DNA from: Halorubrum sp. DM2
GTDB lineage: Archaea > Halobacteriota > Halobacteria > Halobacteriales > Haloferacaceae
Assembly: GCF_901686465.1 (NCBI RefSeq)
Contig: NZ_LR594487.1
Location: 1,299,650 to 1,363,649, forward strand
DNA: 64,000 nucleotides
Reading direction: 5' to 3'
Positions 1,630 through 17,877 of the stretch are shown in pieces (position 1 is the first letter of the stretch; each line of letters opens with the position of its first letter). Under the pieces are notes generated by a model. That model searched no databases and was not told where the DNA came from. It saw only the letters and a program-made list of their open reading frames with translations. Position numbers and translations under genes: made by a program.

Positions 1630-2319
1630 CTCATCCGACGTCGACTACGCCCGGAGCGAACCGACGTACGACACTCCCAGAGCGCAACAGTTCTGGATCG
1701 CGAACGCGATTTGGACGAGCATTGCGGACGCCACGTCGGCGACTCATCACTGCTAGTCGATAAAAAAAGAGACGGACGAGGCTCTTCTGGAAACTGGTGA
1801 TGAGTGAGGTGGAAGCCTGCGGACGCTAGCGCCCGTCGTCGCGCTTCTGGGGGGTAATACACTACCCTGCGGCTCCAAAGCCTTTGCGCGGCGCAGAGAC
1901 TCGTCTGTGGGTCGTCTGTGTTGTGCCGTCTCCATTCCCCGTTATGTCGGGGGACGATCCGAACGTCGTACGTTGCGGACTGGCCCTCGCGAACGACGAT
2001 GTCCGGATGATTGATGTCGTTCGCCGTTTCGCAAGTGTTGTTGACGGCGACGTCGATCTTTTGTCGGTCTAGCGTTCATGTTTCGATCACCGCCGTTCGC
2101 GAGGCTGAGCCCCTTCGTGGTACTGACTGTCCTACTTATCCCACCTGTCCGGAAAAGCGTTGTCGGAGGGACCACGTAGTGCTGTATGGCTTCGTGCTGA
2201 TACCCACAAAGGCAGAGTGTTGATGTATCCCCTTCCGGTGCTGCTCGCTTCGATCGGGGTGGTCTCCCAGCTCTTCGTCTCGGTCCGGTGTTGCCTGTCG
2301 CTCTCTGCTCGGCGGGCGT
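1630..2319. other. Intergenic stretch with eroded coding sequence
   Basis: No intact gene is visible between the SWIM gene and the ribbon-helix-helix gene. One minus-strand section (about 1950-2081) keeps a coding-like codon pattern and is listed separately. The remainder gives only short, basic or low-complexity translations. Such debris is common in haloarchaeal integrated plasmids. Confidence 0.4.
1950..2081 (-). pseudogene. Degraded gene fragment
   Basis: Reading the minus strand from about 2081 downward gives a run of about 40 codons with GC-rich third positions and an acidic, protein-like translation (for example VAVNNTCETANDINHPDI, then VVREGQSATYDVRIVP). It is preceded by an in-frame TGA, lacks a start codon, and after about 1950 becomes arginine-rich nonsense. 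It is probably an internal piece of a decayed gene; the family is not recognised. Overlapping plus-strand frames are less protein-like. Confidence 0.3.
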
Positions 2320-2673
2320 TCAGTTGTCGTCGTCTTCGTCGTCGTGGTACCAGCCGTTGCCGCCGAAGTACGGGTGCGGTGTGACGAGGTCAACCCCGGT
2401 CGTCCCCTCGGGCAGCGGCATGTTCCCGACCTTTTTGCTCTGTGCTTCGATCTCATCTCCGAACTTCCCATCTGAATTGATCCCTAACTCGACAAGCATC
2501 CGTTCCATCTTGATGTCGATTTGTTCCATCTTAATCCGCTGGTGGCGGTTGTTGATCCCCTCGCGAAGAAGTAGTTTCACAGCCATGCTTCGAGATATCT
2601 CGTGGTGGTCTGCGATGTCATCGATGAGCTCTGCCAGTTCATCAGACACATAGCAGGAGATGTTAGTTGGCAT
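2320..2673 (-). CDS. Ribbon-helix-helix (CopG/MetJ-like) DNA-binding protein
   Basis: The 117-residue product begins with a short beta strand followed by two helices (MPTNISCYVSDELAELID, then EISRSMAVKLLLREGI), the ribbon-helix-helix layout used by plasmid copy-control proteins, antitoxins and partition proteins. A coiled-coil-like segment follows (about residues 40-65) and the tail is very acidic. I chose the ATG at 2673 because it starts the fold directly and has a TATA-like TTAAGTCG about 30 bases upstream; a longer frame to 2775 adds an arginine-rich stretch unlike coding sequence. It stands between eroded DNA and the repeat zone, so control of plasmid maintenance is plausible but unproven. 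Confidence 0.75.
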   Translation of the reverse strand: MPTNISCYVSDELAELIDDIADHHEISRSMAVKLLLREGINNRHQRIKMEQIDIKMERMLVELGINSDGKFGDEIEAQSKKVGNMPLPEGTTGVDLVTPHPYFGGNGWYHDDEDDDN

Positions 2674-3398
2674 TGTAGTTCTTTGTTCACCGGGTCCCCT
2701 GTTAAGTCGTCCCCTCAGACAATCCCCCACATCCGTTCTGCCAACCTCGGCTACTCCCTGCTGACGTGTCACCACTTGGCTCCGTCCTGTCGTCCCCTAC
2801 CTGCGGCAACCGGGGGGGACGATCATCGCCTCTCCATACTCGTCTCCAGTGGACCCGCTTGCCTCCACGCGCCGGGAGGCTCCTCTGCTGTAGCTGTCCA
2901 CCCGTTCTGTCGATCGCCGCGCCGGTCTGTCCCACCGCGTGGCTGGTCGTCAACGCCGGTCCATACACCGAGAGGTTGATGGTGGCCTGTTGCTTTTGGT
3001 CGATGTCGATCGCTGTCCCTGTCTGGGTATGCCAGCCGGGAGCTTGTCTCCGGTCGCTGTTTGGTGTCGCTCTGTCTGAGTGGGTCACCCCCTGGCCCGT
3101 ACTGCTGAGAGTGTCGTCTCAGGCCGCCTCATCTGCGTCCAGAATCCAGTATCTGATTTCTGATATAGATTCCCCGTCTCTCTCATCGATCGCTCACTTC
3201 CCCTCTCTCCTCTCGGCCCCGCCCCGAACTATCGCTACGCGGTCGACCTTCTGGTCGGATTGCCCTCTAGGCCCCTAACACTGTGAATTCGCGGAACCTA
3301 ACCACAGGGGAGGAGAGATATATTAGAGCATCTCTAAAGCCCTCTCAACCGCTTAGAACCTAACCAGCGGGATTATGGGGGTGGGTGCGTTGATTGCG
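2674..3398. other. Non-coding, AT-rising stretch with a short direct repeat
   Basis: No gene is supported here; open frames on both strands have non-coding composition. From about 3150 onward the DNA becomes AT-rich. An 11-base direct repeat, GAACCTAACCA, occurs at 3294-3304 and again at 3356-3366, 62 bases apart, with a very AT-rich segment (GATATATTAGAG) between. This leads into the periodic array that starts at about 3399. Confidence 0.5.
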
Positions 3399-3888
3399 AA
3401 CCCCCCCAAAATCGATAGCCGTCTAGCGATAAACAACTACATCAAATTCAATATATAACATATCAAGGATGCCCTGAAAAGTTGTCGAGTCTTGCGATTA
3501 TAGCCGGTCCTCGGGCAACTATTGCCGCCTATCATGGAATTGGGCTATACCACTCTCGTATTGCGATTGCGTGGTTGATAGTGTACCCCCACAAATCCAG
3601 AGCAGTCTTGCGATTAAATATTGAGACCAGATGTGTCAAATGTGTATTGTGCTGGATTTGTAGTACGATAACAAAACCGGTCAAATCCTTCCCAGTCTTG
3701 CGATTATGAGAATTATCACAACCCCCCTCTATTCGCATCTCGTCCTGCGATAACAGAATTTGATATGTCTCCACCATTCATGTCGTGATGACCCGAGTGG
3801 CTGATAAAGAAACCCCCCAATCTAGTCGCCTTCGTGCGATTATGAGTTTGATAAGAGATCGGCTGTATCGCTCGTCCGTCTTGTGATT
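3399..3888 (+). repeat. 137-base-periodic array of GTCTTGCGATTA sites
   Basis: Eight degenerate copies of GTCTTGCGATTA lie in this AT-rich non-coding stretch. Their GCGAT cores start at 3426, 3494, 3563, 3610, 3700, 3747, 3836 and 3883. Spacings are 68, 69, 47, 90, 47, 89 and 47, so every second site repeats at 136-137 bases. At least four sites (3426, 3610, 3747, 3836) are preceded about 20 bases upstream by an ACCCCC tract, and two are followed by TATGAG. The layout fits protein-binding iterons of a replication origin or centromere, or a very old tandem duplication of a 137-base unit. Repeats are too short and uneven for CRISPR. Confidence 0.65.
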
Positions 3889-4400
3889 TGTTGGTAGCGG
3901 CCCGCCGAAATTATCTGAATTATTATAAGATGGCCGTTATTGTTGTGCTCAATGAGCCGGTGTGATTCCTGTCGGGGGTGATCGACTCTTAATTAGATTT
4001 CTCTGAGATTTCCGATTGATCTCTATTTGCTGTGGTCTAGGTGGCGGCGAGATTCTGGTTAGATTTCCCAGAGATTTCCGATTGATATCCATTTGCTGTG
4101 GTCTAGATGGCAGCGATATTCTGGTTAGATTGTGTTTAGATTGCCGTCTGTATGTCGCTTTTATTGAGTCTCCTAAACGATATCAAAGTGGTTTGCTTTC
4201 TTGTCTTTCAGTACTGTCTTACTCTAGGCGGCCTCATTAGCTTAGAACTTAGTGTGTTCGTAGGCCGTGGCCTTTAGTGCGATATTGGTTGCTGAAGTGG
4301 AAAACTGTTGCTAGCACTTGTTTCAAATGAGAGCTCAGTACAGGGCGGCTGAGTTATTGATTGGCTCCGTACAAGAAAGCGTGTGGCAAAGATATGGCCG
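3889..4400. other. AT-rich non-coding stretch downstream of the ATPase gene
   Basis: No gene is seen. The stretch contains the 66-base tandem repeat listed separately and otherwise AT-rich unique sequence that lies 3' of the large ATPase gene. Together with the periodic array to its left it makes about 1 kb of repeat-rich non-coding DNA, the longest in the window. Confidence 0.5.
3993..4130 (+). repeat. 66-base tandem repeat, two copies and a partial third
   Basis: Copy one (3993-4058) and copy two (4059-4124) begin with TTAGATTTC and share blocks such as GAGATTTCCGATTGAT and ATTTGCTGTGGTCTAG, with only a few mismatches. A third copy starts at 4125 with TTAGAT and then diverges. The repeat contains no gene. 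It may be part of a plasmid origin or simply recent slippage; high copy similarity shows that it is younger than the periodic array beside it. Confidence 0.75.
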
Positions 4401-7400
4401 CTAGTTGTCGTCCAGATCAGTCCTGAGTTTGTTGATGCTGAAGATTTCCTTAGCACACTCCGCATCTAGTTCTTCGTTGATCTTCTCGAAGTTGTCTGTC
4501 TGGCGAGCTTCAACATAGCCGATCTGGTCGATGAGAGATGAGAGGAGCTGCCGCATCCCATCCGCATTTTTCACCACCCAGATAGCATCTCCGGGTTGGT
4601 TCTTGAGCTTGATCGAGTCGTCTACGACGTGTCGCCGTTTGTCTGGTGACGTCTCAACCTCAACGATTTTGATGCGATCGTCGAGAGAGTCGTCGGTCGG
4701 CTTGGCGTAGAGGTCGTACTTCTTCTCTTCGTCGTCCGGGCTGTAGTACATGTGCGTCTCGTAGCCGAGCGCGTCGTAGTGTGCCTGGATGAGCTTGACG
4801 CCGACGCGATGCTCCGGGCTTTCCCGGCCGTACTCACCGCCGTCTCGTGGCGCGAGATTGCGGTCCACGACGACGTTTGCTTCGTCTGTCGGCCAGTAGT
4901 ACGCCTGCCTGTTTCCGAGCGTGAACTTCTCGAGGTATCCCCAGTCGCAGAGGTCTGCTGCTGTCTCGCTGTAGGGAAGTTCCTTCATCGAGTCCTTGAT
5001 GTGGTAGCCGTTTACCCCATCGGTGAGCGCGTCGTAGACCATCCGCAGGAACATTTCGTGTTCATTTGTGAACTCGTCAGTGTCCGCTGGGGAGTCGTCA
5101 TCATCATCGCCGTCGCCGTCATCGTCTTCATCTGCGCGTGCTTTCACGCCGCTGTCCATGTCGATCGCCTCGTGTTCGCGGTTGACGCAGTGGCGATACC
5201 GACTTCGTTCACGCACGGAATCCGCGAGCGAGTTGACGTTGAACGGCCCCGCGTTGTGTCCTGGCGGGATGGGAAGCGGCCGGAGCGTGAGTATCTCCGG
5301 CTTCTGTTTGTGGAAGCCCGTCGACGGCAGCTGGACGATCCACTCACCGCGGCGAAGCCCGGAGATGCGGTCTTTGATCTCATCATTTTCGAGGTCCTCG
5401 TGGAACAGCGACTCTGCGAGGAGGTCGTCGGTCGCGACGTTGCCGATGATCTTCGTGTTGATGTTGTTGAGGATTTCCTTGTACGCCCGCCGGTTGTCGT
5501 GTGGATTGTCTCCGAGTACCTGCTCAGGGTACTGCATGATGAGCCCCAGCGAGAGATTGAATTCCCGCCCTTTCGGGAGTAGCTCTCGGTAGACGATCTC
5601 GTTGCGAGCGATGTTTGCGGACTCCTCGATGATGACGTTCGTGATGTATTCATCGTCGTCTGGCGTCCAGATGGACTGCGCCGATGTCCACAGGTGTGAG
5701 AGGAACAGGACGGTGAAGACTTCGCTGCTGGCTCCACGAAGGCTTCCCGTGTCGATGAGAACGACTTTGTTCGAGTTGAGGATGCTCTTCATGTCGAGCA
5801 TCGGTATCTCCTTGCTGTACCAGTTGGTCTCGTCGTTCCAGTATTTATCCTCGATCGTGTACGACAGCATATCCCAGATGAAGTCGCGTTCCTTCAGCTT
5901 CCGGATCCGATTGAGGACTGCGTCCGTCGTGTTCATGAACTGCCGCGCGTCCTTCTCGAGGTGCGATTCGAGGATGGATGTGACCTGTGTGTCGGCCGTT
6001 CGTGGGATTGCTTCGAGGACTTTGTCGTAGTCCTTGTCGAGGTCTTCGACCTGCTTGCCGTACTTCTGGAACTCCTGTGCGGCCTGCATGAGCTCACCAA
6101 TAGAGAAGTAGTCCTTCCCGTGGTCTTTGTCGAATAGCGCCTTGATCAGGTTGGTGAGGATCTCGTTTGCGACGAACGCCTGTTCGACTGTTTTCTTTCC
6201 CAGAACGAATCTGAGAATCTGAAAATAGTGGTCGATGATATCCTGTTTGGCCGTCTCGCGAGTCCGCCCCGCTCCCTCTGTGAGCGGCCGGAGATCGAAG
6301 AACGGCATCCCCGGAACCATTCCGTCTGCTTCGGGGATCTGGATATATTCGACATCGTCGACGTTGCCGAACAGCGTGCGGTGACACCGCAGGTAGTTCT
6401 CACACATCTCGCCGTCTTTGGGATCGATGAGGATTGTTGGCCCCTCGAGGTCGTTGTGTGTGGTCAGCATGTCGTTGATCGTTGCGACTGTCTTCCCGCT
6501 CCCAGTCGTCGCAGCTCGGATGTAGTGTTGGGTGAGATGGTCCGCAGACAACGATAGCGCGTCTCGTTGCGAGAGGTGGTTCCACCACTCGTTTTTCGTC
6601 TCGATGGTGCTGATATCGTCGGGCTTGTCGCTGTGATCACGCAGCGCGGTGACGGCGTGACCGATGGTCATCCCCTTGGAGAACTCCTTGAACACCTCCT
6701 CGTTCGGCGAGGTGAGCGGCGACTGAGCCGTGGGCATCCCGCCGGTCCCACCGCGACTTGCTTTCGGGAGCGAGTCGATCGACGGGACCGTGATGAAGTT
6801 TGAGAGCTCGTCGATGTTACAGACGAGCAGCGGTTTTCGTCGCGTCCATGACTCCAGCCCGTTCGGGTAGGTGATGCCGTGGTTGAGCATCCGTTCGTAC
6901 TCAGCATCGTTTGTCCCGAGGTAGTTCCCCTCAATCGAGTAGAATTTCCCGCTGATCTGGTTGAGCGCATCTTGGAGATTACGGGCTGTCTCCGGGTTCG
7001 ATGCTGCGGCTCGTAGCGAGACGTTGTACGTGTGTGAGGGATCTTTCAGGTCGATCTGTCCCATCCGGCTAGTCCCTGAGCGGTATCCGCCGGTCTGAGA
7101 GTCGTAGATTGAACCACCGATTTCATGCGGCGTATCACTCCGGTGTCGCTCCTGTTTTTCTTCGTCAGAGACGCCAAGGATACCGTCTATGAGCGTTCGG
7201 AGGAAGAGGCCGCCGGTCGTGTGGACGCCCTGCTTGAGGTTTCCTTTCTGCCGTTCTGCTTTCGGTGACCAGTCCGCGCGTGGCTCGAACACACTCTGAA
7301 AGATGACCGCGCCGTCCGATTGGATGATCGTCTCGAGGAGGTTAGAAAGCGGTGAGCGGTCGATAGCTTCGTTGTCGAACGACGAGAGTGTCGTCATCCA

Positions 7401-8045
7401 GTCGCGCCGCTTCTCTTCGACACCCTCCCAGCGGACCATCTCGGGGACATCCTCGAAGACATCTGTAATGTCGAAGTTTGTCCGACCGAACTCGAAGTCG
7501 TCTGGATACTGCGAGCGCGTGGTACTTTCGAGGCGATCGCAGGTGACATCGCCGCGTCCGCCAGGCCCGATGAAGAACTTGAATTGTGCTTCGTCCGGAG
7601 GTTTGTAGATGATGAACTCGAAATTTGGAGAGGATTCGATGATAGGGAGATGAAGATCCATATCGAGCGGGAGTTTTCGTCCGTTTCCGTATCGGTGGAG
7701 ACCGTACAGTTCGCGTTTGACGGTCTCCGAGTTTACTTCTTCACGGACGGGTATGATCTGGATGTACTCCTGTTCGGATTCGATCTCCTCAATGAAGTTC
7801 TCGGCTTCGTCGTCGCTGAGCGCCCCACTGAGGGATGGATCGGCCGATGATTCGTAGTCCGCAGGGATGGTGATCGGCTCTTCTTCCTCAGTTTCTCCAT
7901 CTAACGCGGCCTCGAAGATGTCGAAGTCGCCGTCAACTACCTCTGGTGTGGGCGTTTCTTCCTGTTCAACCGATGGTTCGTCTGGGCCGGGCGGTTCTCC
8001 AGGTGCTGGGGTATCGCCTTCCCGGTGTTTGTCGTCTTGGCTCAC
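4401..8045 (-). CDS. HerA/VirD4-family conjugation-type ATPase with C-terminal nuclease-like module
   Basis: A very large protein (1,214 residues from the GTG at 8045; a GTG at 8093 would add 16). The N-terminal 500 residues are acidic and unrecognised. The motor domain has Walker A TTGSGKT near residue 510 and Walker B NVIIEESA near residue 802, as in HerA, VirD4 and TraG DNA pumps. An Asp-rich linker leads to a winged-helix-like part and, near residues 1075-1175, a PD-(D/E)xK-like pattern (HRVGVKL, KYDLYA, VEVETS). Such ATPases are common on haloarchaeal plasmids and may move DNA between cells. The start at 8045 is preferred because TATA-like GCTATAGAT sits about 27 bases upstream. Confidence 0.8.
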   Translation of the reverse strand: MSQDDKHREGDTPAPGEPPGPDEPSVEQEETPTPEVVDGDFDIFEAALDGETEEEEPITIPADYESSADPSLSGALSDDEAENFIEEIESEQEYIQIIPVREEVNSETVKRELYGLHRYGNGRKLPLDMDLHLPIIESSPNFEFIIYKPPDEAQFKFFIGPGGRGDVTCDRLESTTRSQYPDDFEFGRTNFDITDVFEDVPEMVRWEGVEEKRRDWMTTLSSFDNEAIDRSPLSNLLETIIQSDGAVIFQSVFEPRADWSPKAERQKGNLKQGVHTTGGLFLRTLIDGILGVSDEEKQERHRSDTPHEIGGSIYDSQTGGYRSGTSRMGQIDLKDPSHTYNVSLRAAASNPETARNLQDALNQISGKFYSIEGNYLGTNDAEYERMLNHGITYPNGLESWTRRKPLLVCNIDELSNFITVPSIDSLPKASRGGTGGMPTAQSPLTSPNEEVFKEFSKGMTIGHAVTALRDHSDKPDDISTIETKNEWWNHLSQRDALSLSADHLTQHYIRAATTGSGKTVATINDMLTTHNDLEGPTILIDPKDGEMCENYLRCHRTLFGNVDDVEYIQIPEADGMVPGMPFFDLRPLTEGAGRTRETAKQDIIDHYFQILRFVLGKKTVEQAFVANEILTNLIKALFDKDHGKDYFSIGELMQAAQEFQKYGKQVEDLDKDYDKVLEAIPRTADTQVTSILESHLEKDARQFMNTTDAVLNRIRKLKERDFIWDMLSYTIEDKYWNDETNWYSKEIPMLDMKSILNSNKVVLIDTGSLRGASSEVFTVLFLSHLWTSAQSIWTPDDDEYITNVIIEESANIARNEIVYRELLPKGREFNLSLGLIMQYPEQVLGDNPHDNRRAYKEILNNINTKIIGNVATDDLLAESLFHEDLENDEIKDRISGLRRGEWIVQLPSTGFHKQKPEILTLRPLPIPPGHNAGPFNVNSLADSVRERSRYRHCVNREHEAIDMDSGVKARADEDDDGDGDDDDDSPADTDEFTNEHEMFLRMVYDALTDGVNGYHIKDSMKELPYSETAADLCDWGYLEKFTLGNRQAYYWPTDEANVVVDRNLAPRDGGEYGRESPEHRVGVKLIQAHYDALGYETHMYYSPDDEEKKYDLYAKPTDDSLDDRIKIVEVETSPDKRRHVVDDSIKLKNQPGDAIWVVKNADGMRQLLSSLIDQIGYVEARQTDNFEKINEELDAECAKEIFSINKLRTDLDDN

Positions 8046-8065
8046 TATAGAGATACCACACGACC

Positions 8066-8152
8066 TATCTATAGCTTTTTTGGGGGGTGCCACTTCAGCT
8101 GGGGGTTAAAAATCAATATTCTGGAACCACCACCCCGCCGGTATGTTTTTAC
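8066..8152. promoter_or_regulatory. Divergent promoter region between ATPase and 309-residue gene
   Basis: Two TATA-like boxes point away from each other. AAAAAAGCTATAGAT (minus strand, about 8067-8081) lies about 27 bases before the GTG at 8045. GGTATGTTTTTA (about 8141-8152) lies about 27 bases before the ATG at 8176. Both distances suit leaderless archaeal transcripts and suggest the two genes are controlled together. Confidence 0.5.
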
Positions 8153-8175: not shown

Positions 8176-9105
8176 ATGCTCACCACACCGAACAGTGCGC
8201 TAAGGCGAATCGGTGACGGATCGGTTTCCCAGCCTGCGCTGGATCTGCTGTACGCGATAGGCGAGTGGTACAACGGCGCTGAGTTCCATCGCGATGGGCA
8301 GCTGCTCTCGATCGCGACCTCACAACCGCCGAACCTTCAGACGCTTATCGGCTGTGGGGACAATTTCTGGGAGTACCGCTACGCGGACGCGTTCGATGAG
8401 TTGGTCTCTCTCGGCTGGGTTCGAGGAAGCGAAGATCCGGAGTGGATCCTGCGCAAGCCGGTGAAGTGGGCTCCGACTCAGCAAGGCCGTGCGGCGATTG
8501 GTGACTTCTTTCGCGAGGAGTTCGTCGAGAAGTACGAACACATAATCCACTACGGTAGCGGCCTCGTCGGAGACGGGGACGAAACGCTGACGCATCGGAC
8601 TGGCGTGGAGCTCTGTCACTTTGCTGGTGGACACGAAAGCTACGCTACAGGATACTTTGAAAATCATCCGTGGGAGAGAGTTGAGATGTACCCTGGGGAT
8701 CACGGCCACGCCCGACCGGACGTCGCCTCTGTCGATAACTGGACCAGCTGGGAAGTCATCACCGGACACAACGATCTCGCCGGGGTCGCCGAGAAGCTGA
8801 TGCGGATTCGTGACCAGTACCAATACGTTCGCTGGCTCTTCGACACGCGGGAGACTGCTTTCCGCGTGCTGTCGTTCTTCCACGAGTCGGACATCACCGA
8901 CATCCGAATCGTGAACGCGCCGTACGACAACCTCGAGAACCACTCACTCCAAATAGGTCAGGACTACCTCAAGCGGAGTCGAGAGGACGATGCGTACTGC
9001 GTGAACGGCATCGACAAACTCGAAACACTCCAGTCGCTCTGGAATCTGAAAGAGCACTTCGCCCAGACCTACAACCAGAAGCCGCCGAACAAATCCACGC
9101 TCTAA
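8176..9105 (+). CDS. Winged-helix protein with PD-(D/E)xK-like C-terminal domain
   Basis: The 309-residue product is not a member of a family I can name. Residues 15-115 look like a winged-helix domain. After an HRTGVEL motif at residues 140-146 comes RPD (180-182) and WEVIT (192-196), then an alternating helix/strand segment with YQYVRWLF. This order matches the C-terminal end of the divergent giant ATPase (HRVGVKL, DLYA, VEVETS, AIWVVKN). The catalytic Lys expected after the second acidic residue is replaced by Thr196, so nuclease activity is doubtful. Divergent promoters suggest joint expression with the ATPase; an accessory role in DNA processing for transfer is inferred. Confidence 0.55.
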   Translation: MLTTPNSALRRIGDGSVSQPALDLLYAIGEWYNGAEFHRDGQLLSIATSQPPNLQTLIGCGDNFWEYRYADAFDELVSLGWVRGSEDPEWILRKPVKWAPTQQGRAAIGDFFREEFVEKYEHIIHYGSGLVGDGDETLTHRTGVELCHFAGGHESYATGYFENHPWERVEMYPGDHGHARPDVASVDNWTSWEVITGHNDLAGVAEKLMRIRDQYQYVRWLFDTRETAFRVLSFFHESDITDIRIVNAPYDNLENHSLQIGQDYLKRSREDDAYCVNGIDKLETLQSLWNLKEHFAQTYNQKPPNKSTL

Positions 9106-9337: not shown

Positions 9338-9694
9338 CTACTTTGTCCGTTCGGTTTCGAGCTGTTCGGCGATCTCCTCAGGGTGCTGTATCGCGACCTT
9401 CAACACCGCCTCGTGTAACTCTCGTCCTGTCTCGTTGCGGATATCCCGGTCACGGAGGTGGCGTTTCACCTCGATATCGAGGAAGTCTTCAAACTTCTCG
9501 TGCGTAGATTTCCGTGGATAAATCTGCGCCTGGACGGATTCGTCGAAAGAGAAGGCCGGCTCGTTTCTGTCGTCTACAGCCGACGTGCCCGTATCCTGCC
9601 CGGTCGTCTCATCAGCGTCGACGACGGGTTCGGACTCCTCTTCCTCTGTCGCTTGGTCTTTTCCCGCCTCATTGAGGTCATCAAATCCGGTCAT
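9338..9694 (-). CDS. Small ParA partner protein (putative partition protein)
   Basis: The 118-residue product has an acidic, disordered first half and a more basic helical second half (about residues 55-118). Its start codon overlaps the parA stop by four bases, so the two are translated together. In haloarchaeal plasmids a small protein in this position usually acts as the centromere-binding partner of ParA. No ribbon-helix-helix motif is obvious by eye, so the DNA-binding role is inferred from position and charge. Confidence 0.6.
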   Translation of the reverse strand: MTGFDDLNEAGKDQATEEEESEPVVDADETTGQDTGTSAVDDRNEPAFSFDESVQAQIYPRKSTHEKFEDFLDIEVKRHLRDRDIRNETGRELHEAVLKVAIQHPEEIAEQLETERTK

Positions 9695-10557
9695 CGGTCG
9701 ATCCCTCCTTGTTCGACGATCTGAGCGAGTTCGGCGTAGTTCTCCAGTTGGTCACAGCTCTCGTCGTAGTCACGGACGGGAAGAGCAGCGTCGTGCGCAG
9801 CGTCGATGGCGCCACGGAACCGGATCCCCGGAAGCCCACCGTCGTACTCACCGACGTCGATAGCGTCCCACTCCTCAGGGGTGATGCGGGCGTAGGAAGG
9901 AATGATATCGTCGGCGATATCGAGGGAGTTAAGCTGTTCGAGCAGACCCCGATCGCGGGTGTCCTGGTCGATCCGACTGTTAAGCGCCGTTGGCGTCACC
10001 GCGAGGATGTTCAGCTCGAAGTATTCCCGAGCTTCCTCGACGAGCCGTTGAATCGTATTCGAGAGGCCGGAGTCGTAGCCACTCTCAGGTTTGAGCGGAA
10101 TGATGATGTTCCGCGTGGCGTACATCGCGTTGTCGTTCAGCTTCCCCCGGTTTGCCGGGCAGTCGACGACAATGTAGTCGTATTCGTCACCGAGTAGCGG
10201 GTCGACGAGATGCTTGCGGAGTCGGGCGCTCCCCATCGTTGCGTTCCGGAGTTCGTTCTCGACGGATTCAAGTTCGGTATGGGCCGGGAAGAGGTCGAGG
10301 CCGTCGACGACGTTCACGATGTACTGAATCGGTTCCTCGCTGTCGACGAGGACACGCTGTGTATGGTTCACCTCACTTGTAAACTCGTCTTCGAACCCGA
10401 GTTGGCGGGTCATGTGACCGTTGTCGTCGAGGTCAATAACGAGCGCGCTCCCGTTGCGGTGGGCGAGTTCGCGCGCTGTGTTGATGGCAGTAGTCGTCTT
10501 CCCGAAACCGCCTTTTAACACGCCGACGCTGACCGCTCGTGGTTCTGTTTCAGACAT
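9691..10557 (-). CDS. parA: ParA-family partition ATPase
   Basis: The 288-residue protein has the deviant Walker A motif KGGFGKTTT (residues 15-23) and later motifs of the ParA/Soj/MinD group (VIDLDDNGHMT, then YIVVDCPANRG). ParA ATPases segregate low-copy plasmids by forming ATP-dependent patches on the nucleoid. Length and lack of an N-terminal HTH are those of small plasmid (type Ib) ParA proteins. It is the first gene of a two-gene operon with the small partner that overlaps its 3' end. The region just upstream carries 9-base-periodic repeats that likely act as centromere and operator. Confidence 0.92.
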   Translation of the reverse strand: MSETEPRAVSVGVLKGGFGKTTTAINTARELAHRNGSALVIDLDDNGHMTRQLGFEDEFTSEVNHTQRVLVDSEEPIQYIVNVVDGLDLFPAHTELESVENELRNATMGSARLRKHLVDPLLGDEYDYIVVDCPANRGKLNDNAMYATRNIIIPLKPESGYDSGLSNTIQRLVEEAREYFELNILAVTPTALNSRIDQDTRDRGLLEQLNSLDIADDIIPSYARITPEEWDAIDVGEYDGGLPGIRFRGAIDAAHDAALPVRDYDESCDQLENYAELAQIVEQGGIDR

Positions 10558-12096: not shown

Positions 12097-13398
12097 CTAC
12101 CGGTCACTCACCCGCTGGTCGGTCTGTGAGAACGCCTCGGTCGCCATGTCGGCGCGCTCGGCCGCCTCGATGTGCTGGTAGGCCTCGCGGACCTGTTCCT
12201 CGCTGTTGTCGAGATACCGCGCCGCGGCGGCGTAGCCGAACTGTCGAACGAGGACCTCACCCACCCCACGCCGACCGCCGTGGAGTTCGAGATAGTTGCC
12301 ATCGAGTGAGAGATCCAGCTCGTCGCGACGCTCCGCAAGCGCGTCGTGGGTCCAGAGCCGCTCCATGATCGACCGTGCGCCGTCCGTGGTGAGCGGCTTC
12401 GGCGCGTCAAGGTCGTGTTCAGCAGCGACGATCAGGTCGGGAGCGCCTGCCCGGACGCGCTCGATCGCGTCGTCGTCGAGACCGGCATCGGTAAGACCCT
12501 CGGTAACGTGTGAGGCGAGCGACGGCCGATGGAGCGTCGTGAACACTGGCCACGAGTCTGAGACATCCAGTACCTCCGTGTATCGCTTCAGCGGCGTGAT
12601 GACGGGTTCCGGGAGGGAGGCTTCCTTCCACTCGCGACTTTTTCGGAACACGGTGACACTGCTGTCTGTGAACGATACGTCACGCCAGCGGATGCTGTTG
12701 CGCCCCTCGCGGTCCTCTTTCGGCGCGGAGAGGAACTCTGACCCGCGCAGGCCGGTGTAGGCGACGACGTACACGAGCGCCTGTTCACGACACCGCTGGT
12801 ACGCTGTGAATCGGGCTTTCTGCTTGGCCTGCCATACCTCGCTTTCGGGGTCGCCCCGGTCGGCGTGGGGGACTTCGATCGCGCCGAGCGCGTCGAACGC
12901 CTCAGAGACGCGGCGGTCGACGAACTGCGTGATCAGGTCGCGGTGGATCGGCTCCCACGCCTGCTGGTCACCTGGACGTCGACCGTCGTTCTCCGGGAGC
13001 GGATCTTCGGCGTCCGACTCTCGGGCGTAATGTCGTGGGAGGTAGCCCTGCGCGTGTGCCCACCCGCACCACGACGCGACGTGCGCGTAGTAGGTGAGGA
13101 TCGTTCCGGCGGCGTATCCGGCGGTCGAGAGGTACCGTGCGTAGTCCGAGAACACCGTCGTGTCGAGGTCGACGAATCGAACGGCGTCGCCGTCGACGAT
13201 GCCGGCCCACGACTCCGGCGGTGTGGCGTTCGCTGAGTCAGCGGTCTTGCCGAGACACCAGCGGCGGAATCGATTCAGCTCGCGCTCGGCGTCGGTTCGG
13301 TACGCGCCCTCCTCGCCGGCATCGCCCTTCCCCTTGTCCGTAAGGTACTTCGTGAACGTGTCCTCGATCGGCGTCTCGACGGAGCGACGCCCCGTCAT
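12097..13398 (-). CDS. Tyrosine recombinase / phage-type integrase
   Basis: The 433-residue protein has an N-terminal SAM-like core-binding domain (about residues 10-150) and a C-terminal catalytic domain with the full set of residues: Arg218 in TGLRGSE, Lys253, His373 and Arg376 in LHGGRRG, and the nucleophile Tyr407 in EAYQHI. It breaks and rejoins DNA at attachment sites and is probably responsible for integration or resolution of the element on its left. ATG at 13398 gives a normal length. No tRNA gene or att duplication was seen next to it. Two inverted repeats upstream (13539-13572 and 13662-13679) may be binding or control sites. Confidence 0.9.
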   Translation of the reverse strand: MTGRRSVETPIEDTFTKYLTDKGKGDAGEEGAYRTDAERELNRFRRWCLGKTADSANATPPESWAGIVDGDAVRFVDLDTTVFSDYARYLSTAGYAAGTILTYYAHVASWCGWAHAQGYLPRHYARESDAEDPLPENDGRRPGDQQAWEPIHRDLITQFVDRRVSEAFDALGAIEVPHADRGDPESEVWQAKQKARFTAYQRCREQALVYVVAYTGLRGSEFLSAPKEDREGRNSIRWRDVSFTDSSVTVFRKSREWKEASLPEPVITPLKRYTEVLDVSDSWPVFTTLHRPSLASHVTEGLTDAGLDDDAIERVRAGAPDLIVAAEHDLDAPKPLTTDGARSIMERLWTHDALAERRDELDLSLDGNYLELHGGRRGVGEVLVRQFGYAAAARYLDNSEEQVREAYQHIEAAERADMATEAFSQTDQRVSDR

Positions 13399-13890: not shown

Positions 13891-15471
13891 TTAGTCGTGC
13901 GGGATCAACCCTGAGGCAACGAGCTCAACACACTCACCCGCAGTTAACACGGGTGCGTAGTCCATCTCACCATCCACGCCCGCTTTCAGCAAGAAGTCGG
14001 TGAGCCGCCAGATATTGTACAAGAGTACCGCGAACACGAAGTAGAACAGGCGAACGCGGTAGTCTTTCGAGGAGGTCTTGGCGAAAAAGTCACCTTTGAT
14101 CGATTTGTACTCACTCTCGATTTGCCACCGGCGGCTGTAGCGGTGACAGAACGACTCGGCCTCCTCCGGACCGACTCGGAGATTCGTCGCAAAGACGGCC
14201 GTCCCCTCACCACTCGTCGACGGCACGTACAGGAGCCGCATTGGATGCGATCCAGATTCCACATGGACAGAAGCTGACTCAACGGCCACCTCTTGGTCAT
14301 CTTCCTCCATTTGTTCGAGTACATCCCGTTCGGAGCTGGAGATCCGCTTCGGAATGAGATAGTTCACATCGAGGTTTGAGAGCGTCTGAAACACGCGTAT
14401 CGAATCGAACTCCCGGTCACAGAGCACCGTCTCAATTGGGACGAGCTCTTTCGCCCGTCGAACCAGTCGCCGCACAGTACGATGGATCTGATTCGACGGG
14501 TTCTCATCCCACTCGGAGCTCTCTCGGACCGGTTCTACGGCGAGAACGAGCGGGATATTCTGTCCAATGATTGAGAGGGTCGCAAATTTGAACGCTCGAC
14601 CGTCTCTGTCCTTCGTCCCGCTGACCATCGGCATCTCATTGACCTCTCCGTAATAGGGAATCGTCGTGATATCGATCGCGGCAGTGACTGGTCGCCGGAA
14701 CGATGCTTCAGAGGCGATCACGGAAAGCAAGCGATCTATCGTCTCGTTAAAACTATTCACGAGCTCTTCGGGATCAAACTGCTTGACTGCTCGGAGGTGG
14801 GTATCTCCGTGGGGACCGTACTCCTCGCCCCGCCGATACTGGAAGCGAGTCGCTCCTTGGGCGGTGCCACAGCGGACCATTCCCATGAACGTCTGTAACT
14901 CGAAGAATTGTGTGTCCTCATAAGAGGCGTTTGAGGCCCGGCCAGAGTCGAAGTGACCGAATGCGTGGTCGCGTGCCAGGCGCGTCATCTGGTCAATCTT
15001 CTCCTGTGAGAAGGATTCGTCTTCTACTGATTCTTGGTCTTCTTCGGTATCGTCGACGATATCTGTCTTAGGCCGGACGCCGGGCACTGAGATGTTACGA
15101 TCGTGGACTTCTTTGACAACGAAGTGGGCGGCAGCGTGGACGTACTCGTGAACAGTGTCGTCGAATCGATTCCGCCACGCCCGCGAGAACGCTGATTCGT
15201 CGGGCACTCGACTGAAGCCGAGGATACCGGCTACTTCTGGTTGCCGTGTAAGTCGCCGAGTGAACTCGGCGTAGGAATCACCCGTGATTTCCATGAAGAC
15301 AGACGAAAAGACCATCGCGCGGAAGGAGAGTGGCGCAGGATGCCACGCTGGATACCCGTCTTCGACCGCGTCAATCGAGTGGTCAAGGTTCTCGAACGCA
15401 GTGACAAGGTCTGATCCTTCGAGTTCGTTCCGGATGGCGATCCCGAGTTGGTACGCTTCGCACCGCCTCAC
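13891..15471 (-). CDS. IS4-family DDE transposase
   Basis: The 526-residue protein has the features of an RNase-H-fold transposase: first Asp in AIDITTIPYYG, second Asp in VLCDREFDS, and the IS4 signature Y-x2-R-x3-E-x6-K in YSRRWQIESEYKSIK. The N-terminal part is the usual helical domain of large halobacterial transposases. Length is full and no frame break is seen, so it may be active. Its start GTG at 15471 overlaps the TGA of the glutaredoxin-like gene upstream (GTGA), unusual for an insertion sequence, where a terminal repeat normally separates transposase from flanking genes. The next in-frame ATG would cut off conserved N-terminal sequence. Confidence 0.88.
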   Translation of the reverse strand: MRRCEAYQLGIAIRNELEGSDLVTAFENLDHSIDAVEDGYPAWHPAPLSFRAMVFSSVFMEITGDSYAEFTRRLTRQPEVAGILGFSRVPDESAFSRAWRNRFDDTVHEYVHAAAHFVVKEVHDRNISVPGVRPKTDIVDDTEEDQESVEDESFSQEKIDQMTRLARDHAFGHFDSGRASNASYEDTQFFELQTFMGMVRCGTAQGATRFQYRRGEEYGPHGDTHLRAVKQFDPEELVNSFNETIDRLLSVIASEASFRRPVTAAIDITTIPYYGEVNEMPMVSGTKDRDGRAFKFATLSIIGQNIPLVLAVEPVRESSEWDENPSNQIHRTVRRLVRRAKELVPIETVLCDREFDSIRVFQTLSNLDVNYLIPKRISSSERDVLEQMEEDDQEVAVESASVHVESGSHPMRLLYVPSTSGEGTAVFATNLRVGPEEAESFCHRYSRRWQIESEYKSIKGDFFAKTSSKDYRVRLFYFVFAVLLYNIWRLTDFLLKAGVDGEMDYAPVLTAGECVELVASGLIPHD

Positions 15472-15999: not shown

Positions 16000-17454
16000 T
16001 CACTCGACGCAACAGCTCATCGTTGACGTATCCCGGCGGAACGCCTGACAGGCCTGCTTGAACGCCTCAGAGAACGTCGGGAAGGGATGGATCGTGTCGA
16101 TGATATCGTCGACAGTCAGCTCGAATTTCACCGCCAGCGTCGCCTCCATGATCATGTCGGCTGCCCGTGGCCCGACCATGTGGACGCCGACGATCTCATC
16201 GGTCTCGTGGTCTGTCACCACTTGGACCAGTCCGTCCGTGTTCTCGACGGCCTTCGCTCGGGGGATGTCCTCCATCTGAACGGTTCGGCAGGCACAGGTG
16301 CCGTGCTCGTCCATGTACTCCAGTTCGGTCGTGCCGACGGTGGCGACCTCGGGACTGGTGAACACGACCGCTGGGACGGCGTCGTAGTCGATGGTGGCGC
16401 CTCCGCTGCCGAACGCGTTCTTGACGGCGTGGTTGCCCTCCTTGGCGGCGACCGTCTCGAGTTCGGGCTCACCGATCACGTCGCCGGCGGCGTACACGTC
16501 CGGGTTCGTCGTCTGGTAGTGTCCGTCGACGCGGACCGTCCCGTTGTCGTTTGTCTCGACGCCGACTGCGTCGAGGCCGATGTTCTCGCTGTTCGGTTGT
16601 ACGCCGGTCGCGACGAACAGCGCATCCGCGGTGAACACCTGCGAGTCGCCATTGACGACAGTTTCGACGGTAGCGCCCTGCGGGACGGCTTCGGCGCCGC
16701 CGTCGGTCGCCGGCGACCGAACTCGCTCGAACTCGTTGCCGGTCACCACATCGATGCCCTCCTCGCGGAAGGCCCGTTGCATCTCCCGGCCGAACTGGCC
16801 CTCCATCCCGGAGAGCACGCGCTCGGAGCGCTGAAGGATCGTCACGTCGACGCCGACGCGGTGGAGGATCTGGCCCCATTCGAGCGCGATGTATCCGCCG
16901 CCGATCATGATGATGCTCTCGGGGAGGTCGCGTTCTTCGAGGATGGTCTCGCTCGTGTAGTAGTCGACGGCATTGAGGCCGTCGATGGGCGGTGCCCAAG
17001 GGGAACTGCCCGTCGCGACGAGCGCCTTCCCCCCGGTGATGCGCGTGCCTTCGTCGGGGCCGTCGACGATTTCGATGGTCGTGTCCTCGACCAACTCGCC
17101 GTATCCTTCGGAGACGTCGGTCTCGAAGTGCTCGGCGACATCGACGTAGTTCTCCCGTCGGAACCGTCCGACGAGGTCGTCGGTGCCGTCGAGTGCCTCG
17201 CCCCAGTCGACGGTCGGTTCCTCGGAATACGTGACGGCGTCGAAGGGGTTGTCCGACGCCGCGGCCCCGCTTTCGGCGACGGCGAGCAGATGCTTGCTCG
17301 GGACGCAGCCGACGTTGACGCAGGTACCGCCGATCGGCAGCCCGGTGTTCACAATCGCCGTCGAGAGGTCCCGCTGGCTGGCTTCGGTGATCGCCGCGAA
17401 CGCTGCGGCACCCCCACCGAGAATCACGAGATCGTAGTCTGTCGTACTGGTCAT
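16000..17454 (-). CDS. merA: Mercuric reductase (class I flavoprotein disulfide reductase)
   Basis: The 484-residue protein reduces Hg(II) to volatile Hg(0) with NADPH. It has the FAD motif ILGGGAAAF near the N terminus, the redox pair Cys45/Cys50 in GGTCVNVGCVPSK (a MerA-type signature), a central NAD(P) motif IGGGYIALEWGQ, and the C-terminal vicinal cysteines Cys481-Cys482 (SCCVE) that bind mercury and separate MerA from lipoamide dehydrogenase. The N-terminal heavy-metal domain found in many MerA proteins is missing. ATG 17454 starts directly at the Rossmann fold; a longer frame adds non-coding-like residues. A divergent HxlR-type gene probably regulates it. Confidence 0.9.
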   Translation of the reverse strand: MTSTTDYDLVILGGGAAAFAAITEASQRDLSTAIVNTGLPIGGTCVNVGCVPSKHLLAVAESGAAASDNPFDAVTYSEEPTVDWGEALDGTDDLVGRFRRENYVDVAEHFETDVSEGYGELVEDTTIEIVDGPDEGTRITGGKALVATGSSPWAPPIDGLNAVDYYTSETILEERDLPESIIMIGGGYIALEWGQILHRVGVDVTILQRSERVLSGMEGQFGREMQRAFREEGIDVVTGNEFERVRSPATDGGAEAVPQGATVETVVNGDSQVFTADALFVATGVQPNSENIGLDAVGVETNDNGTVRVDGHYQTTNPDVYAAGDVIGEPELETVAAKEGNHAVKNAFGSGGATIDYDAVPAVVFTSPEVATVGTTELEYMDEHGTCACRTVQMEDIPRAKAVENTDGLVQVVTDHETDEIVGVHMVGPRAADMIMEATLAVKFELTVDDIIDTIHPFPTFSEAFKQACQAFRRDTSTMSCCVE

Positions 17455-17477
17455 TCGTGTTCGCACTTTACGATGGG

Positions 17478-17536
17478 AAATTCTTATACTTCGAAGTCCA
17501 AAGCTATGGAGTACGTTGGAGGCTCCAAAGCTATGG
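17478..17536. promoter_or_regulatory. Divergent merA/HxlR promoter with palindrome and direct repeat
   Basis: TATA-like TTCTTATACT (17481-17490) can serve both directions: it lies about 30 bases before the merA ATG on the minus strand and about 45 before the regulator ATG on the plus strand. A perfect 10-base palindrome ACTTCGAAGT covers 17488-17497. A 13-base direct repeat TCCAAAGCTATGG occurs at 17497-17509 and 17524-17536, the second copy containing the regulator's start codon. These are good candidates for an operator that controls both genes. Confidence 0.55.
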
Positions 17537-17877
17537 CAGATTCCACCCCACAGGCGCCCGTCTGCGATGTCGACGGTACGTGCTACTGCCCGCTCACAGG
17601 CGTTATCGACACCCTGAGTCGGAAATACGCGATACAGCTCGTCAGCATCATCGGGGCACACGACTCACTCCGATTCGCTGAGATCGAAGAGCACCTGCCG
17701 ACAGCGAGCACCTCGACAATCTCGAAGCGGCTCGACGAGTTCGAGGAAGCCGGACTGATCGACCGAACCCAGTACAACGAGATCCCGCCCCACGTCGAGT
17801 ATTCGCTGACCGAGAACGGGACCGAATTACGGACACGGCTCGAACCGCTCTTGGAGTGGGCTGCCTCGACCGAGTGA
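17533..17877 (+). CDS. HxlR-type winged-helix regulator, putative mercury/thiol sensor
   Basis: The 114-residue protein has the HxlR/MarR winged-helix pattern (LTGVIDTLSRKYAIQLVS, then TISKRLDEFEEAGLI and a wing ending in EYSLTENG). Three cysteines, Cys11, Cys17 and Cys19, lie just before the first helix, a common position for redox or metal sensing in this family. It is divergent from merA, so control of mercury resistance is the simplest reading. I chose ATG 17533; ATGs at 17506 and 17473 are in frame but fall within the promoter region and would translate the operator's direct repeat. Confidence 0.75.
   Translation: MADSTPQAPVCDVDGTCYCPLTGVIDTLSRKYAIQLVSIIGAHDSLRFAEIEEHLPTASTSTISKRLDEFEEAGLIDRTQYNEIPPHVEYSLTENGTELRTRLEPLLEWAASTE

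Follow-up and report, generated by a model that had tools for sequence, protein, structure and literature searches.

The locus and its array

The window, the whole stretch of 64,000 nucleotides that was analysed (G000:C1:1299650-1363649), is part of a 3.45 Mb haloarchaeal chromosome. GC content at 1-16 kb is lower than in the rest of the window, and this region looks like a mobile element; its genes are listed with the other features in Table 1. Immediately left of the window the same genome carries a gene that matches the Mrr_cat nuclease significantly, and a further ParA. Near the element, neither a tRNA nor long att-like repeats were found. A SWIM zinc-finger protein at 808-1629 was matched by PADLOC to PDC-S62 (E 9e-14) and DpdE (E 6e-7), and a 526-aa ORF at 13891-15471, beside the integrase, resembles an IS-type transposase in sequence appearance only.

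The array lies in a 1.7 kb noncoding gap with the gene of a ribbon-helix-helix (RHH) protein on one side and the large ATPase gene on the other. The RHH protein matched Pfam RHH_1 at E=0.0097, below the curated cut-off; its monomer model, of low confidence, has helices at residues 11-23 and 28-64, and a PDB sequence search returned no useful relative. The predicted structure of the ATPase (pLDDT 33) was too poor for a structure search.

Table 1. Features of the array locus and its surroundings (window positions)
Feature	Position	Strand	Remarks
RHH protein, 117 aa, strand TNISCY, putative box reader	2320..2673	-	Pfam RHH_1 and covariation with dialect
Noncoding spacer, RHH start to block	2674..3272	.	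Pyrimidine-rich on +: purine 0.38, GC skew -0.18, AT skew -0.36
Conserved block adjoining array	3273..3385	.	Precedes every tabulated array, also in L037
Block direct repeats GAACCTAACCA x2	3294-3309, 3356-3371	.	Flank the palindrome
Block palindrome TTAGAG-CAT-CTCTAA	3323-3337	.	In other loci like TTAGAG-N3-CTCTAA
Eight-unit array	3391..3889	+	Unit: left box, ~23-bp core, GTC-box and right box
Unit spans	3391-3432, 3459-3500, 3528-3569, 3575-3616, 3665-3706, 3712-3753, 3801-3842, 3848-3889	+	
Site 1 right box GTCTAGCGATAA	3421..3432	+	
Site 2 right box GTCTTGCGATTA	3489..3500	+	
Site 3 right box GTATTGCGATTG	3558..3569	+	
Site 4 right box GTCTTGCGATTA	3605..3616	+	
Site 5 right box GTCTTGCGATTA	3695..3706	+	
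Site 6 right box GTCCTGCGATAA	3742..3753	+	
Site 7 right box TTCGTGCGATTA	3831..3842	+	
Site 8 right box GTCTTGTGATTT	3878..3889	+	
Large P-loop ATPase, weak coupling-protein similarity (TraD/TrwB-like)	4401..8093	-	TIGR03743 E=1.5e-4; PF10412 E=0.013 on a fragment
ParA	9691-10557	-	7 kb from RHH; own adjacent downstream partner gene at 9338-9694
HTH and PIN-like genes	within 1-16 kb		
Integrase	12097-13398	-	

Eight direct sites, all on the + strand and with at most two mismatches to GTCTTGCGATTA, were located at 3421-3889; one further site of that quality was found in the 64-kb window outside the array. The gaps between site starts are 68, 69, 47, 90, 47, 89 and 47. An earlier note, made from the sequence alone, had reported alternating gaps of 47 and 90 preceded by 68 and 69, and the pattern proved stronger than was claimed: region 3300-4300 has eight matches, where 2000 dinucleotide shuffles gave 0.08 on average and never more than 2, and the geometry score of the eight sites was 0.80 against 0.33 ± 0.016 (maximum 0.42) for shuffles. 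The recurrence every 136-137 bases described in the same note is present in the window (137, 137, 136 and 137, 136) but is peculiar to its subgroup and no general rule, relatives having 115 or 126; the period is a by-product of 47+90, and the conserved rule is that gaps differ by whole helical turns. Plain autocorrelation is only modest at 136/137 (2.7-2.8 SD, with lags 47 and 184 higher), because conservation is limited to the boxes.

The unit is larger than was noted. Each site is only the right half of a unit of ~42 bp, whose left box starts about 30 bp before the right one, and between the two lies a weakly conserved C-rich/AATC core. The C-tracts placed by the note some 20 bp upstream of several sites are real at sites 1, 4, 6 and 7 only; in relatives they form part of this core. 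The spacers have nothing in common between units of the array. At 10.5 bp per turn, gaps of 47, 68, 79 and 90 correspond to 4.5, 6.5, 7.5 and 8.6 turns; being near half-turns, they would make neighbouring units face opposite sides of the helix. The boxes are 12 bp long with irregular gaps, unlike the near-identical repeats and regular spacers of CRISPR, as the note had also held. No Rfam match up to E=1 was obtained for 2300-4600. A tandem 66-bp repeat (2.1 copies, 89% alike) follows straight after the array at 3993-4131, and this stretch is more diverged in a relative that is 80% identical.

Each array is preceded by a block of ~120 bp with a GTGAATTC-like motif, the palindrome and two flanking direct repeats. 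The block repeats are alike within a locus and vary between loci independently of the letters of the array boxes; the block is probably read by a protein other than that of the array. A DNA hairpin in the block was not unusual (z -1.6 and -0.5). The noncoding spacer between RHH gene and array is strongly pyrimidine-rich in nearly all loci (about 0.6-1.7 kb, purine 0.30-0.41).

Conservation of the array across haloarchaea

Loci were gathered from homologues of the RHH protein in plasmids and genomes, and arrays were then located by a geometry search near the RHH gene; an earlier de novo finder was swamped by GC-rich codon repeats. The same array was present at nearly every RHH-gene homologue with enough upstream sequence (about 20 loci in several haloarchaeal families), on plasmids and on chromosomes. 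Carriers include Halorubrum, Halohasta, Haloarcula, Halobacterium R1 PHS2, Halosimplex, G074, G267 and Natrialba. The note had proposed a search of related plasmids for the same spacing; across these loci the gaps are identical to the base, or the long gaps are shifted by whole helical turns (68/79/89). Plasmid-type relatives have long gaps of 79/80 (period 47+79/80 = 126-127), Natrialba has 68 (period 47+68 = 115), and the Halobacterium array has gaps of 89 and 69.

At the DNA level, G033 has a copy with 80% identity; other genomes matched only over 80-120 bp beside the array. A separate DNA search of plasmids with the array region gave no match because conservation is limited to the boxes. 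A geometry scan independent of letters recovered the same gaps with other letters, namely GTCTTGTCATTA (G041, G015), GTCTTGTRATTA (G003) and GTCTGCTTATTC (G003, G037); G003 has two arrays in tandem. The RHH gene of L063 is broken and its array partly decayed, and those of L016 and L037 are broken with arrays still good. RHH and ATPase profiles gave no matches in viral contigs. L052-L054 were considered as RHH homologues and rejected, being weak matches with no array; L052 and L053 had no RHH match on re-check. No description of the array was found in a search largely confined to open literature.

Several neighbours were also recorded. TCATTA-type arrays with no adjacent RHH gene occur in L017 (~17250-17725), L085 (~8550-9010) and L078 (~8615-9080); a TCATTA-type RHH is encoded elsewhere in these strains, and the arrays of L017 and L078 lie near genes for methyl-accepting chemotaxis proteins. 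A small protein family (AYNED...DVYSL) is encoded just after plasmid-type arrays (L017 16303-16746, L018 9111-9668, L021 9135-9665, also L034, L036, L057 and L062), including both arrays of the Fb21 replicons. The gene with the Mrr_cat match left of the window (L067 7701-9457, E 3.4e-6) overlaps a 238-aa gene; in relatives, a three-gene cluster that has a DUF7344 protein is near the array in nine loci.

Box dialects and the RHH protein

Box letters differ from element to element and agree inside each array. At least eight such dialects were distinguished (CGATTA, TCATTA, TAATTA, TATTTA, GTATAC, CTATAG/CTATTA, CTTATT and TGAATA), and Halobacterium KA-4 has an additional divergent array. Box statistics were taken in separate registers; automatic unit registration misplaced several arrays, among them L016, L018, L019, L021, L036, the second L017 array and L078. 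Identity at position +7 was 0.88 within arrays against 0.23 between them, and the specificity letters were at chance level between arrays. Left-box positions -26/-25 gave 0.76/0.66 within and 0.36/0.30 between. Fixed frame letters are T at +1 (1.00 within, 0.89 between) and A at -11 (0.84 and 0.81). The boxes were better conserved than core and spacers in 7 of 8 related locus pairs; in one example pair the boxes kept 84% against 49% for the core and 22% for the spacers, which are saturated. Purifying selection acts on the boxes, and dialect changes are concerted. Gene conversion is an unlikely source of box uniformity because it has left the spacers unhomogenised; each of the 16 boxes seems to have followed a changing protein individually.

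The note had suspected a link to an RHH gene, and it is this gene that the array adjoins. The array tracks the RHH gene rather than the wider ATPase family, since six plasmids with distant ATPases (~34-44% identity) have no such geometry, and plasmid p117 of BOL3-1 has array and RHH in a genome where no ATPase relative was found. Residues 4, 6 and 8 of the RHH protein, which by alignment to CopG we take to be the DNA-facing residues of the strand, correlated with dialect (permutation p~0.001). Over 10 dereplicated loci r was 0.59 (p=0.0002), and controlling for the rest of the protein left the correlation in place (partial r=0.59, p=0.0006). The three residues were picked by knowledge of the fold, yet after some sequences had been viewed. 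The remainder of the protein gave r=0.08, and random residue triples equalled the correlation in 0.8%. CGATTA goes with strands TNISCY and TNVTCH, TCATTA with KISGY and QISAM, TAATTA with RISxY and TATTTA with RIGxM; no RHH was paired as reader with the CTTATT arrays. This covariation supports the RHH protein as the putative reader of the boxes.

Two mismatches were seen. L058 combines strand QIS with a TATTTA array, and the RHH of L028 is identical to that of L029 while their arrays differ. L028 and L029 share 98.8% identity as far as the array start and are unrelated beyond it, so arrays undergo exchange by recombination near that border. The L028 contig stops just past the array, and the L058 contig end has DNA resembling the stretch after the Fb21 TCATTA array. 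Either contig may have ended short of a second array, given the tandem arrays of G003, the L028 contig end and an ATPase in G037 that starts 302 bp from another contig end.

Function of the array

Judged from its sequence, the array is best read as the phase-locked site at which an RHH-type nucleoprotein complex of a mobile element assembles, and not as a decayed tandem repeat. The latter, offered by the note, and a chance AT-rich pattern were suggested by base composition and the modest plain autocorrelation; they can be dismissed as extremely improbable, since shuffles never reach the array, relatives keep the exact geometry with different letters, spacers are unrelated between units, and boxes are kept where spacers are saturated. 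The note's other proposal, an origin, centromere or nucleoprotein scaffold of an integrated plasmid, named the right class, spacing and boxes being kept in about 20 related elements.

We tentatively favour an RHH cis assembly site that would most likely start DNA transfer or mobilisation. RHH dimers would occupy the left and the right box of each unit, both short pseudo-palindromes, so that an array could take up to 16 dimers. The fixed left-to-right distance of about 35 bp and the half-turn phase of the units would join them in a single rigid complex, probably wrapped, beside the conserved block with its palindrome. The complex might mark the element DNA for a motor, so that transfer would begin there as at an oriT or clt, with the RHH in an accessory role and the neighbouring ATPase acting as the coupling motor. 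Systems for comparison are oriT regions with an RHH accessory protein and a coupling ATPase, and TraB/clt of Streptomyces. They share with the array a noncoding multi-site region beside an RHH gene and a motor ATPase, here a putative one, on integrative elements; they differ in that here no relaxase, nic site or pilus gene was identified among those element genes that were scanned, and the ATPase is only weakly similar to TraD/TrwB.

For the function (transfer start, centromere or origin) we infer only that a transfer site is more likely than a partition centromere. Transfer is favoured because the ATPase family adjoins the array in 13 compared loci (window counted), with an integrase in several, because an Mrr-type nuclease gene lies immediately left of the window and its homologue is close to the array at other loci, because chromosomal copies exist, and because the ParA of the window has its own downstream partner. 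Counting against transfer, p117 has an array without the ATPase.

A partition centromere, in which the RHH would be a ParR/ParG/SegB-like adaptor, the array a parC-like site and the dialects incompatibility groups, is somewhat unlikely. In ParMRC systems RHH proteins as a rule read direct-repeat arrays whose sites are specific to the family (PMC9426499), the elements carry ParA genes, and several plasmids bear the array. However, neither ParA nor ParM was found beside the RHH gene where loci were annotated, nor in the set of neighbours that loci share; ParA is paired with its own adjacent gene (in the window, on p117 and on the Fb21 plasmid), chromosomal copies keep the array, and arrays of one dialect occur together in a single cell or on a single replicon (NZ_CP034942 has two of TCATTA type; G015 C20 and C11). 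As in type II ParR/parC of Clostridium perfringens, where both the sequence and the spacing of parC repeats vary from family to family (PMC9426499), an RHH gene (a weak call, Pfam E 0.0097) stands beside direct repeats; here, in contrast, the operon has no ParM or ParA, spacing is fixed while letters change, and units have two boxes. In archaeal SegAB, too, palindromic sites upstream of the operon are read by an RHH protein that the operon encodes, but segB is paired with segA, which it overlaps, and the 13-bp SegB motif TCTAGA-S-TCTAGA occurs dispersed along the chromosome in a form that different genera have in common (PMC12284271), whereas the sites in the window are clustered, phase-locked and variable, with other neighbours and another motif.

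It is unlikely that the boxes have another reader (the C-terminal domain of the ATPase, the small ORF that follows plasmid arrays, or a trans factor) and that the RHH merely tags along. The L028/L029 and L058/L021 exceptions would fit, as would a family of ORFs of ~100-215 aa that follows most plasmid-type arrays, including two with no adjacent RHH. Yet the small ORF was not detected in window-type loci, p117 speaks against the ATPase, and the RHH strand residues correlate with dialect.

A replication origin, with the RHH as control or wrapping protein, is more doubtful still. The array is richer in AT than the DNA around it, GC skew changes in every tabulated locus from negative on the side of the RHH gene to positive on the other, and the two-repeat block with its palindrome resembles initiator sites. 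Against this, no orc1/cdc6 or other initiator gene adjoins the array, whether in the plasmid loci with annotation or in the part of the window genes that was scanned; on the p117 and Fb21 plasmids orc1/cdc6 is several kb away. The skew is local, one side being the unusual pyrimidine-rich segment. Iteron origins consist of phased direct repeats; the array differs from them in having no Rep gene, two-box units and irregular gaps.

It is possible, though this fuller statement is a little less likely, that the array is a new type of cis site on archaeal mobile elements: an RHH assembly of 16 boxes with frozen geometry, whose code would have been rewritten many times at all boxes. Every element would then have an address of its own for transfer or segregation, and the block would contain another code that evolves independently. 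One RHH family with at least eight recognition codes on a constant layout amounts to a natural experiment in protein-DNA co-evolution, and specificity could be mapped residue by residue. The transfer and segregation mechanisms of haloarchaeal integrative plasmids are poorly known, and the array is a candidate for their missing cis site, be it a transfer origin or a centromere.
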